From NCBI RefSeq assembly GCF_003335085.1, contig NZ_QPEJ01000017.1, positions 310,001 to 374,000 on the forward strand: a DNA stretch of 64,000 bases, read 5' to 3'. Source of the stretch: Polaribacter sp. WD7. Lineage in GTDB: Bacteria; Bacteroidota; Bacteroidia; Flavobacteriales; Flavobacteriaceae. The position numbers and the translations under genes were made by a program. Positions 44,356-46,687 of this stretch are shown piece after piece (within the stretch, counting starts at the first letter, position 1; every line of letters starts with the position of its first letter). The notes beneath the pieces are model-generated. The model did not search any database. It saw nothing but the letters and a program-made list of their open reading frames with translations, and was not told the DNA's origin.

Positions 44356-44733
44356 TTATAAACATTCTTTACATTTTCCTTGAATAAAAACCTGATAAGA
44401 AGTAACACTATAATCTGGAATGTCTGGAAGACTAACATTTACTTGCAAACAATTGATTTTACCACATATTGTACATTGAAAATGTGGATGATTGTCTGTA
44501 TGCGTTGTTTTATTACAATTTTGACATTTTGCATATCTTTTCACTCCGTCTTTTCCCATAAAAGAATGTAAAACTCCATCATCCTCTAATTTATCTAATA
44601 TTCTATAAATAGTAGACTTATTAAGTTTTGTACTTAATTGAGTTACTAAATGTACTGCAGAAATTGCTGTGGAATTCTTACGAAACTCATCTAAAACAAT
44701 TTGAACTGATTGTGTTTTTCTTACAATTCCCAT
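44356..44733 (-). CDS. Fur/Zur-family metalloregulator
   Basis: 125 residues from the ATG at 44733 (MGIVRKTQSVQIVLDEF); the longer frame from 44769 would cover the promoter. N-terminal winged helix (AVHLVTQLSTKLNKSTIYRILDKLEDDGVL), then zinc-binding Cys pairs CQNC and CTIC, His-rich HTDNHPHF, and a C-terminal CKEC. Fur-superfamily; the context with a ZIP transporter points to zinc (Zur) rather than iron. Divergent from the MerC-like gene, with two palindromic sites covering both promoters. Confidence 0.87.
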   Translation of the reverse strand: MGIVRKTQSVQIVLDEFRKNSTAISAVHLVTQLSTKLNKSTIYRILDKLEDDGVLHSFMGKDGVKRYAKCQNCNKTTHTDNHPHFQCTICGKINCLQVNVSLPDIPDYSVTSYQVFIQGKCKECL

Positions 44734-44738
44734 AAAAA

Positions 44739-44769
44739 CAAATTTATAACAACTAAGTTGCAATAACAA
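44739..44769 (-). promoter_or_regulatory. Promoter of the Fur/Zur-like gene
   Basis: Minus strand -33 TTG (44769-44767) and -7 TAAATTTG (44746-44739), spacing 20 bp; the palindrome at 44748-44762 lies between the boxes, so the regulator would repress itself. Confidence 0.55.
44748..44762. promoter_or_regulatory. Second, imperfect Fur/Zur-type site
   Basis: A 15-mer matching 12 of 15 positions of the perfect palindrome downstream (core CAACT-A-AGTTGCA), 38 bp centre to centre from it. It covers the -33 box of the merC-like gene and the spacer of the regulator promoter. Confidence 0.5.
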
Positions 44770-44787
44770 CTTTAATCTCTATATTTG
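44758..44787 (+). promoter_or_regulatory. Promoter of the MerC-like gene
   Basis: -33 TTG at 44758-44760, -7 TATATTTG at 44780-44787, spacing 19 bp, ATG 28 bp on at 44815. Confidence 0.7.
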
Positions 44788-44800
44788 CAACTTAGTTGCA
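44786..44800. promoter_or_regulatory. Perfect palindrome TGCAACTTAGTTGCA (probable Zur/Fur operator)
   Basis: 7-1-7 perfect inverted repeat overlapping the last bases of the -7 box and the predicted start point of the MerC-like gene. Size and symmetry are typical of Fur-superfamily sites; the sequence is not a standard Fur box, so this assignment rests on position. Confidence 0.65.
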
Positions 44801-44814
44801 TTAACAATAAAAAC

Positions 44815-45222
44815 ATGATTTCTATACATAAAAAAAAGCCAGACAACCTAGGTATAATTGCAAGTTTATTATGTTTTATACATTGTTTGGCTACTCCTCT
44901 ATTATTTGTTTTGCAAGCAACAACCTTTAATGTATCTAATTCTGTATCTTTTTGGTGGCAAAGTTTTGATTTAATATTTCTAATTGTTGGCCTTATAGCA
45001 ATTTATCATTCTAGTAAAACAACATCAAAAATGTTAATGAAGTATTTGCTTTGGTTTTTTTGGTTCTTTTTATTTTTTTTGGTAGTTAATGAAAAAATAC
45101 ATTTTTTTCATATTCCTGAGTTCATAATGTATACAACTACTTTATCTTTGTCAGCGTTACATTTTTTAAATTTAAGATATTGTAAATGTAAAGATGACTC
45201 GTGTTGCGCGTCAAATCATTAG
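44815..45222 (+). CDS. MerC-domain membrane protein
   Basis: 135 residues from the ATG at 44815; the upstream frame from 44785 would begin inside the operator. Four predicted helices; first has NLGIIASLLCFIHCLATPLLFV with the paired Cys of MerC-type mercury-uptake proteins, and the C-terminus is Cys-rich (RYCKCKDDSCCASNH). In Flavobacteriia this family appears next to metal regulators, so probably transports or binds zinc or another soft metal rather than mercury. Opposite the Fur/Zur-like gene and probably repressed by it when metal is plentiful. Confidence 0.82.
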   Translation: MISIHKKKPDNLGIIASLLCFIHCLATPLLFVLQATTFNVSNSVSFWWQSFDLIFLIVGLIAIYHSSKTTSKMLMKYLLWFFWFFLFFLVVNEKIHFFHIPEFIMYTTTLSLSALHFLNLRYCKCKDDSCCASNH

Positions 45223-45237
45223 AAAATGTATTACAAC

Positions 45238-45253
45238 AAGTAGTAAACTACTT
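45238..45253. promoter_or_regulatory. Inverted repeat before the methyltransferase gene
   Basis: Perfect AAGTAGT-AA-ACTACTT palindrome, 34 bp upstream of the ATG at 45288 and 15 bp after the MerC-like stop. Could be a weak terminator stem or an operator; no T run follows immediately. Confidence 0.35.
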
Positions 45254-45287
45254 ATTTAGTTTTACAATAAACAATCTCTAAAATATT

Positions 45288-46013
45288 ATGAAAACGAAAG
45301 ATTGGTTTACAGATTGGTTTAACACACCTTATTATCACATCTTATATAAAGAGAGAAATGATGAAGATGCTCAGTTATTTATGAGAAACATCACTTCATT
45401 TTTAAAACTTCCACTTTCTACTCACATTTTAGACCTTCCCTGTGGTAAAGGACGTCATTCTGTTTTTTTAAATTCTTTAGGATATCAAGTAACTGGTAAA
45501 GATTTATCAGAAAATAGCATAAATAAAGCAAAAGAATTTAAAAATGACACACTTCATTTTAAAGTGCACGACATGCGCGAACCTTTTGATGAAACTTATG
45601 ACGCTGTATTTAATTTATTTACAAGTTTTGGCTATTTTAAAGACGATAAGGACGATTTAAGTGTTTTAGAAAACATTAAAAAAGGCCTAAATAAAGACGG
45701 AATTTTTGTATTTGATTTTTTAAATGCCCTTAAAGTAAAGCTCAATTTGGTTGCAGAAGAAACCAAAATAGTTGATGATATTACGTTTCATATTAAAAGA
45801 GAGATTACTAATGGTTTTATACTAAAACATATTTCTTTCTTCGCAGATAATCAACAACATGCTTATACAGAACAGGTAAAATATTTAGATTTAGACAAAA
45901 TGAAATCTTTCTTCAGTAAAGCAGGTTTTACAATTACCAACGTTTTTGGAGATTATCATTTAAATGACTACAATGCTGCTACTTCTGATAGATTAATACT
46001 TGTTGCTAAATGA
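45288..46013 (+). CDS. Class I SAM-dependent methyltransferase
   Basis: 241 residues. Motif I is ILDLPCGKGRHSVFLNSLG (SAM-binding), with DLSENSINKAKEF at motif II, and FNLFTSFGYF. This is a small-molecule-type methyltransferase with no obvious specificity domain, and PWFTDWFNTPYYHILYKERN-like start is characteristic of the UbiE/type-11 group in Bacteroidetes. The stop overlaps the ATG of the ZIP transporter by 4 bp, so it may be coupled to metal uptake, but the substrate is not known. Confidence 0.85.
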   Translation: MKTKDWFTDWFNTPYYHILYKERNDEDAQLFMRNITSFLKLPLSTHILDLPCGKGRHSVFLNSLGYQVTGKDLSENSINKAKEFKNDTLHFKVHDMREPFDETYDAVFNLFTSFGYFKDDKDDLSVLENIKKGLNKDGIFVFDFLNALKVKLNLVAEETKIVDDITFHIKREITNGFILKHISFFADNQQHAYTEQVKYLDLDKMKSFFSKAGFTITNVFGDYHLNDYNAATSDRLILVAK

Positions 46014-46687
46014 GTTACATATTATTAGTTATAGCTGTTTTAGTAGGTTTTTTTGTAGTATATTTTATTAAACCAAAAAAAACAATTTTACAACTATTAT
46101 TAGCTTTTAGTGGCGCTTATCTATTATCTGTAACTATTTTGCATTTATTACCAGAAGTATATCAAGAAACTTCTAACTACAAAACAGTTGGTGTCTTCAT
46201 TTTATTAGGTATTGTAATTCAGTCTGTTTTAGAGTTTTTTTCTAAAGGAGCAGAACACGGACATATACATAAACATACAGATAGTAAACAATTTCCAATA
46301 TTATTATTTATGAGTTTGTGCATTCATGCTTTTTCAGAAGGATTGCCTATACACAGCGCTGATGATAATTTATTATGGGCAATTGTTATTCATAAAATTC
46401 CTATTGCTATTGTATTAACTTCTTTTTTAATTCATACAAAATACTCCAAATTAGAAATCTTTTTATCTTTAACTACTTTTGCAATAATGAGTCCTCTGGG
46501 AGTTCTTTTAGGCAACAACGTTTCTTATTTCAACATGTATAACATAGAAATAACAGCATTAATAATTGGTGTCTTTTTACATATTTCTACAATAATTCTT
46601 TTTGAAAGTACTGAAAATCATAAATTTAACTTAAAGAAATTTGTTGCTATACTTCTAGGTATTTTTCTTACCCTAATTACTTTATAG
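46010..46687 (+). CDS. ZIP-family metal transporter
   Basis: 225 residues, eight predicted helices. The metal-binding HAFSEGLP motif with His and Glu in helix 4 and HKIPIA in helix 5 are the ZIP signature; a short His-rich loop (HGHIHKHTDSK) between helices 3 and 4 resembles a metal-binding loop. Imports zinc or other divalent ions. Overlaps the methyltransferase gene by 4 bp and lies downstream of the Fur/Zur-like gene. Regulation by the sites at 44748-44800 would explain the block. Confidence 0.9.
   Translation: MSYILLVIAVLVGFFVVYFIKPKKTILQLLLAFSGAYLLSVTILHLLPEVYQETSNYKTVGVFILLGIVIQSVLEFFSKGAEHGHIHKHTDSKQFPILLFMSLCIHAFSEGLPIHSADDNLLWAIVIHKIPIAIVLTSFLIHTKYSKLEIFLSLTTFAIMSPLGVLLGNNVSYFNMYNIEITALIIGVFLHISTIILFESTENHKFNLKKFVAILLGIFLTLITL

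Follow-up and report, generated by a model that had tools for sequence, protein, structure and literature searches.

A putative zinc-responsive double operator shared by a Zur-type regulator gene and a merC-like gene in Polaribacter

The Zur proteins of B. subtilis, S. coelicolor and E. coli are described, in the available part of PMC6103462, as dimeric repressors of the Fur family with a structural Cys4 site and a mixed His/Cys sensory site. According to the same part, their boxes are palindromic (9-1-9 or 7-1-7) and promoters are known in which two boxes cover the −35 and −10 elements. Targets reported elsewhere include COG0523 proteins, zinc-sparing paralogues and the ZrgABCDE proteins (available parts of PMC6103462, PMC2770081 and PMC9817125). 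Zur itself, double boxes and COG0523 targets are therefore already known (PMC6103462, PMC2770081, in the parts available). What is new at the locus described here, as far as the open-access literature listed shows, is the operator and its link to MerC: among the matches listed, none deals with a Bacteroidota Zur operator or with a connection between MerC and zinc, and no such box or connection appears in the available parts of papers on zinc in Riemerella (PMC11960050), Fur in Porphyromonas (PMC6613475) and the Flavobacterium ribosome (PMC9976891).

The window analysed here, a stretch of 64,000 nucleotides from Polaribacter sp. WD7, carries a Fur-family regulator gene and a MerC-family gene that are transcribed divergently from a gap of 81 bp. 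Within this gap lie two 15-bp boxes, their centres 38 bp apart, together with the elements of two promoters. The features of the locus are as follows, where paired relatives are the 61 orthologous loci with two boxes 36–40 bp apart that are described below:

44356–44733, minus strand: Zur-type Fur-family regulator, 125 amino acids, ATG at 44733 (Pfam FUR 36.4 bits, cut-off 23.1; PDB profile; ligand mapping)
44739–44746, minus strand: regulator −7 element, TAAATTTG (from the sequence; 53 of 61 paired relatives have TAnnTTTG equally far from the box)
44748–44762, no strand: box 1, AACAACTAAGTTGCA, an imperfect copy with two mismatches to TGCAACTNAGTTGCA, filling the regulator's spacer and holding the merC −33 (equivalent pair in 61 of 79 orthologues)
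44758–44760, plus strand: merC −33 TTG, within box 1 (45 of 61 paired relatives have TTG 19 bp ahead of the −7)
44767–44769, minus strand: regulator −33 TTG, between the boxes (TTG 20 bp ahead of the −7 in 51 of 61 paired relatives)
44780–44787, plus strand: merC −7 element, TATATTTG, sharing 2 bp with box 2 (TAnnTTTG with the same overlap at constant offset in 54 of 61 paired relatives)
44786–44800, no strand: box 2, TGCAACTTAGTTGCA, an exact 7-1-7 palindrome (from the sequence and conservation in orthologues)
44815–45222, plus strand: MerC-family membrane protein, 135 amino acids, with a CxxHCxxTP signature and a Cys-rich tail (PF03203, 71.9 bits, cut-off 27.6)
45288–46013, plus strand: SAM-dependent methyltransferase, probably in the operon (PF13847 and others; methyltransferase–ZIP pair also in L019 and L201)
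46010–46687, plus strand: ZIP-family zinc transporter, with a 4-bp overlap with the methyltransferase gene (PF02535, 80.7 bits)

Bacteroidota promoters follow the consensus TTG, about 19 bp, TAnnTTTG. The four promoter elements of the window, assigned by eye from the sequence, fit this pattern with spacings of 19 bp for the merC promoter and 20 bp for that of the regulator, and their coordinates place box 2 over the final two bases of the merC −7 element and over the expected start point. An earlier sequence-only reading of this DNA had described just such a layout (a Fur/Zur-type regulator, two palindromes over divergent promoters, the perfect one over the −7 and start of merC, the imperfect one over the merC −33 and in the regulator's spacer, and four boxes at 19–20 bp spacing, a description that fits the four promoter elements), and the assignments above bear it out. 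Its remark that the motif is unlike the usual Fur or Zur boxes also holds, both against the E. coli consensus in the available part of PMC6103462 and against the other classical boxes.

Taken on its own, the number of boxes in the window is unremarkable. A scan allowing up to three mismatches gave six matches, four of which are the two boxes read on both strands, against a chance expectation of 3.04 (sd 1.75), and six were reached in 6 of 100 shuffles. The exact 15-mer is found at only one place in the 2.97 Mb genome. At up to three mismatches the whole genome holds 106 places, namely this exact one, eight with two mismatches and the rest (about 97) with three; a control with the reversed pattern, here and in the scan of 199 genomes below, was a poor one because that pattern contains CG. 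Contexts were inspected for places with no more than two mismatches. Box 1 is one of the eight two-mismatch places, five fall within reading frames that were called mechanically (one of these frames being short and doubtful) and two are intergenic with no recognisable metal genes alongside; no second convincing box was found among the exact and two-mismatch places. Nor is there a box within three mismatches in the loci of the two GTP cyclohydrolase I genes of this genome. Three weak PF02492 matches were considered as possible COG0523 genes but were taken for other P-loop GTPases, on grounds of length and, for two of them, sequence. We take the weight of the box evidence to lie in conservation among relatives.

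To assess this conservation, orthologues were drawn from 42 named loci and from family and genus matches; at 40% identity or more and at least 95 residues, with identical proteins counted once, 103 matches reduced to 79 distinct orthologues. A box with at most two mismatches lies within 150 bp of the start codon in 75 of the 79, compared with 12 of 3950 controls made by first-order resampling rather than exact dinucleotide shuffling. The best box has no mismatch in 25 orthologues, one in 40, two in 10, four in two, six in one and seven in one, so that four of the 79 lack a box at the two-mismatch level. Two boxes 36–40 bp apart are present in 61 of the 79 and in one of 3950 controls, the distance being exactly 38 bp in 47 of the 61; the remaining 18 orthologues have no pair at this distance. 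In 52 of the 61 paired loci the end of a box is 13 or 14 bp ahead of the regulator's start codon. The set retains near-identical proteins, some from copies of one genus, and such repeats are not independent evidence, but the orthologues used are mostly only 44–64% identical to the regulator of the window. Because the paired boxes recur in 61 of 79 orthologues, with promoter elements at the same offsets in most of these, a design in which both overlapping divergent core promoters are covered by a box of their own is very probably under selection. A lack of conservation in relatives was one of two findings that the sequence-only reading had named as telling against its proposal; conservation is instead clearly strong. 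Two regulator copies (L124 and L058, one in a fragmented assembly and one in a MAG) are broken by a stop or a frame change.

What kind of Fur-family protein is the regulator? The Pfam score given above places it in the Fur superfamily, as does its predicted fold, and ten residues (H56, C70, C73, H82, H84, C87, C90, C95, C121 and C124) do not vary in any of the 39 aligned orthologues. In an alignment with E. coli Zur, C103, C106, C143 and C146 correspond to C87, C90, C121 and C124 of the regulator, a predicted structural Cys4 zinc site that is intact in 39 of 39 aligned orthologues and in all 62 close homologues (counted with L081–L089 set apart). The sensory residues H77, C88 and H96 correspond to H56, C70 and H78, putative ligands present in 62, 60 and 61 of the 62 close homologues respectively, and the fourth, E111, falls in an alignment gap with no partner in the regulator. 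According to the available part of PMC6103462, two His, one Cys and one Glu make up the sensory site of E. coli Zur; His77 is named, and mutants of C88 and C103 are included. Compared with E. coli Zur, the regulator has a shorter C-terminus and an additional conserved cysteine, Cys73, and its Cys95 aligns with E. coli C113.

When the family profile was searched against the PDB, S. coelicolor Zur (3mwm) came first with Fur (2w57) close behind, and M. tuberculosis and E. coli Zur came next with Fur proteins interleaved. An AlphaFold2 model of the regulator (pLDDT 81) has as its best Foldseek match 7ne9, which by its title is a zinc sensor from a marine cyanobacterium, with modest TM-scores and with many Fur and PerR chains scoring near it; the best 50 matches shown are Fur-family proteins by title, except for 5nbc, the title of which carries no family name. 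The NCBIfam models are less obliging: the regulator is far below every cut-off of the Zur, Fur and PerR models and scores 23.1 bits with the Zur equivalog NF008646, for which the curated cut-off is 167. Among the 39 orthologues, two Fur models match 39 and 38, and the Zur model 21. We consider it very likely that the regulator is a Zur in the functional sense, standing outside the NF008646 equivalog.

The MerC-family gene is followed by the methyltransferase and ZIP genes, and we infer that the three form one operon running from 44815 to 46687. In L019 and L201, too, the regulator is followed by a methyltransferase–ZIP pair, which in L055 is found on the opposite side of the regulator. No MerC gene was seen beside the regulator in L201, where two 5′-nucleotidase-like genes (read by eye) occupy MerC's usual place and the boxes are weaker, with 3 and 2 mismatches. 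In MerC itself, H23, C24, T27, P28 and H116 are invariant in 45 of 45 aligned divergent orthologues and C20 is present in 44 of the 45.

Further clues to function come from the genes that accompany the regulator and its box in relatives. Of 72 loci, 53 have a MerC-family gene as the immediate divergent neighbour, all of these being among the 63 loci L018–L080; 24 have a GTP cyclohydrolase I gene, counted by motif, near the regulator, and 15 have a COG0523 gene there. All these counts are lower bounds because only 36 of the 72 loci hold at least 3 kb upstream and some duplicate others. Across 199 genomes the exact motif occurs at 22 places in 18 genomes, and 15 of the 22 adjoin the regulator. 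Away from it, two places are 58 and 79 bp before COG0523 genes; one, accompanied by a second box, precedes merC in G019, about 4.6 kb from the regulator; one is 289 bp before an LCIB-type carbonic anhydrase gene that has another box, with one mismatch, 54 bp ahead of it; one is 155 bp ahead of a gene whose ZrgA match falls short of the cut-off (L136); one is 145 bp before a gene of no assigned function; and one is inside a reading frame. At L136 a HisI-type gene is divergent from a second copy of the regulator, and at L143 the regulator stands divergent to a GTP cyclohydrolase I gene, while a COG0523 gene is preceded by a double box with one and two mismatches. The combination of zinc-uptake and zinc-sparing genes is thus seen in relatives, and in the genome of the window, where no ZnuA was found at E 0.001, the regulon found is one operon. 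The sequence-only reading had expected copies of the box near other metal genes; this proved right for zinc genes in relatives but produced nothing convincing in the genome itself at up to two mismatches. Of the kinds of target it had named, C− ribosomal protein paralogues and TonB receptors, none was noticed beside the sites inspected.

COG0523 and paralogue targets are common to this regulator and to known Zur systems, but its core target appears to be MerC with ZIP or GTP cyclohydrolase I where theirs is znuABC, and the sharing of two boxes by divergent promoters of the Bacteroidota type also sets it apart. There is some likeness to the Zrg system of Vibrio: L173 and L174 have a ZrgBCE-like set (an ABC ATPase, an FtsX-like permease and a small CFFCG protein) between a Fur-family regulator and the MerC gene, the third gene of the ABC cluster having no match in a Pfam scan of L173, the one locus scanned, and the weakly ZrgA-like gene of L136 carries the exact box. 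A ZrgABCDE-like set is absent from the window's locus.

From the observed sequence elements, their geometry and conservation, the Zur-type ligand pattern and the company of zinc genes in relatives, we propose with considerable confidence that this stretch is a zinc-sensing switch in which Zur represses its own gene and the merC–methyltransferase–ZIP operon. A palindromic operator lies at the regulator's own promoter and at the promoter of a putative zinc-uptake operon, ZIP being in it. When zinc, the presumed metal, is sufficient, zinc-loaded Zur dimers would bind the two 15-bp palindromes (extended form near TTAATGCAACTnAGTTGCAAAT), probably one dimer to each box, and would block both divergent core promoters, so that zinc-bound Zur would act here as a repressor rather than an activator of both transcription units. 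When zinc runs short, the sensory site would empty and Zur would leave the DNA; the ZIP transporter and the MerC-like membrane protein would then be made and zinc brought in.

The regulator might alternatively sense another nutrient metal (iron, manganese, nickel or cobalt). A close orthologue, taken as a match of at least 43% identity (a line set by eye), is present in 21 of 120 genomes from the family. MerC is encoded in 20 of these 21 and in 9 of the 99 others (p = 7e-15), the exact motif is present in 12 of 21 and 2 of 99 (p = 2e-9), and ZnuA is encoded in 13 of 21 and 40 of 99 (p = 0.09); these p-values are too small because the genomes share ancestry and include that of the window. The idea that MerC replaces ZnuA finds no support in the last comparison. 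Nor is znuA a target in relatives, since none of the 13 genomes having both znuA and the orthologue has a box within three mismatches in about 1.2 kb upstream of znuA (of the 40 genomes with ZnuA but no close orthologue, 20 were taken, and 3 of these have one). No other result weighs as heavily against a textbook Zur regulon as this missing box. Either the regulator does not control the ZnuA transporter through the box, and some other regulation may act on it, or the transporter is for a different metal, which may be manganese. ZIP and COG0523 proteins are not strictly specific for zinc, and together with the absent znuA box and the greater number of orthologues matched by the two NCBIfam Fur models this speaks for another metal. 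The Zur-type ligands H56, C70 and H78 argue against it, however, as do the zinc-linked targets and the best structure matches, which are zinc sensors even though others come close, and iron could be served by the only other FUR gene found in the genome, which lacks a CxxC motif. We regard a sensor of another nutrient metal as improbable.

Marginally less probable still is a metal-resistance switch, with the regulator sensing mercury or another soft metal and MerC detoxifying it. MerC takes its name from mercury-resistance operons, the window's protein has a clear score with the same Pfam family (PF03203) as classical MerC, and classical MerC is likewise a small hydrophobic protein with Cys residues. 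In mer operons, too, a gene is divergent from that of the regulator, as merC is here, and a thioredoxin-reductase-like flavoprotein gene, identified by eye, is near the regulator in 6 of 72 loci. The regulator is of the Fur family, however, not MerR. The immediate neighbours of merC in the window are genes for an RlmL-like methyltransferase, the Fur-family regulator, the methyltransferase and the ZIP transporter, with no MerR-type regulator or reductase among them, and no mercuric reductase was recognised by eye among the 30 neighbour clusters listed. Unlike the MerC of mer operons, that of the window adjoins a Fur-family regulator and keeps company with zinc genes, no mer genes having been recognised among its neighbours, and the boxes before COG0523, GTP cyclohydrolase I, HisI-type and weakly ZrgA-like genes mark out a zinc-starvation set. 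MerC is also kept in small genomes of 1.3–1.9 Mb, which again does not favour resistance.

These small genomes belong to the nine that encode MerC without a close orthologue: six small ones, G024, G094 and G096, with one MerC locus inspected in each except G024. In the six (L195–L200, from G004, G035, G065, G095, G081 and G055) no box within three mismatches was found in 5 kb at each locus, and MerC is retained as if useful without Zur control; G095 has a second MerC match besides the locus inspected. G094 has a place with three mismatches near merC and G096 a box with one mismatch, and in both a more distant Fur-family gene is 3 kb from merC. That the boxes belong to some other regulator, with the adjacent Fur-family gene a bystander, is very hard to believe when the exact motif tracks the orthologue among genomes and adjoins it at most of its places, and when many more distant homologues have related boxes upstream.

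If the locus is a Zur switch, what does MerC do? Its regulation, its frequent pairing with the regulator and the invariant Cys and His residues in its first hydrophobic stretch suggest a role in transport, and MerC may be a zinc importer, though the chance of this falls a little short of even. A broader proposal, which we advance tentatively and hold to be rather more doubtful than not, is that flavobacterial MerC-like proteins are a class of zinc importers or zinc-delivery proteins at the core of a Bacteroidota Zur regulon with the operator TGCAACTnAGTTGCA, in which MerC is the usual partner of Zur, znuABC stands outside and the regulator–MerC pair has moved between classes. A dependable operator for the phylum would make zinc regulons predictable in Bacteroidota, and a family annotated as 'mercury resistance' becomes a candidate for zinc supply.

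A profile search at 1e-15 found matches in 72 of 296 genomes of the phylum. Close orthologues are also present in one family (f23) of another class, and a Balneolales MAG (L022, on a contig of 5.6 kb) looks alike. Each of the five f23 close orthologues (L204–L207 and L209) has one box, not a pair, with one or two mismatches, and merC is its divergent neighbour. A tree of 90 regulators places the f23 sequences and L022 within the window's family, in two positions; the main group is supported at 0.71, the enclosing nodes at 0.85 and 0.95 and the whole ingroup at 0.54. For so short a protein and with support so modest, this hints at transfer of the regulator between classes. More distant homologues have altered boxes, for example TGCAACATTGTTGCG or TGCAACACAGTCGCA, and several adjoin a shorter MerC-like protein with a CLIHC motif; no box within four mismatches was found at L215, L224, L225, L227 and L229, five of the 27 phylum-wide loci inspected. 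The suggestion in the sequence-only reading that the site may define the Bacteroidota Zur motif is accordingly fair for the window's family and one family of another class, with the caveat that the boxes of more distant regulators are related but altered, or, at the five loci just named, not found.

Two further groups were seen in the same survey. In the first (L219–L223, L226 and L230) the regulator is divergent from the shorter MerC-like protein (112–117 amino acids, CLIHC), and all members but L230 have two boxes 36–40 bp apart with 2–4 mismatches each. The second is a separate Fur-family group (L210–L213 and L083) with a conserved asymmetric box, TTGCAACACAGTCGCAA or close to it, upstream of the regulator. 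L083, L215 and L216 adjoin a thioredoxin-reductase-like gene, identified by eye.
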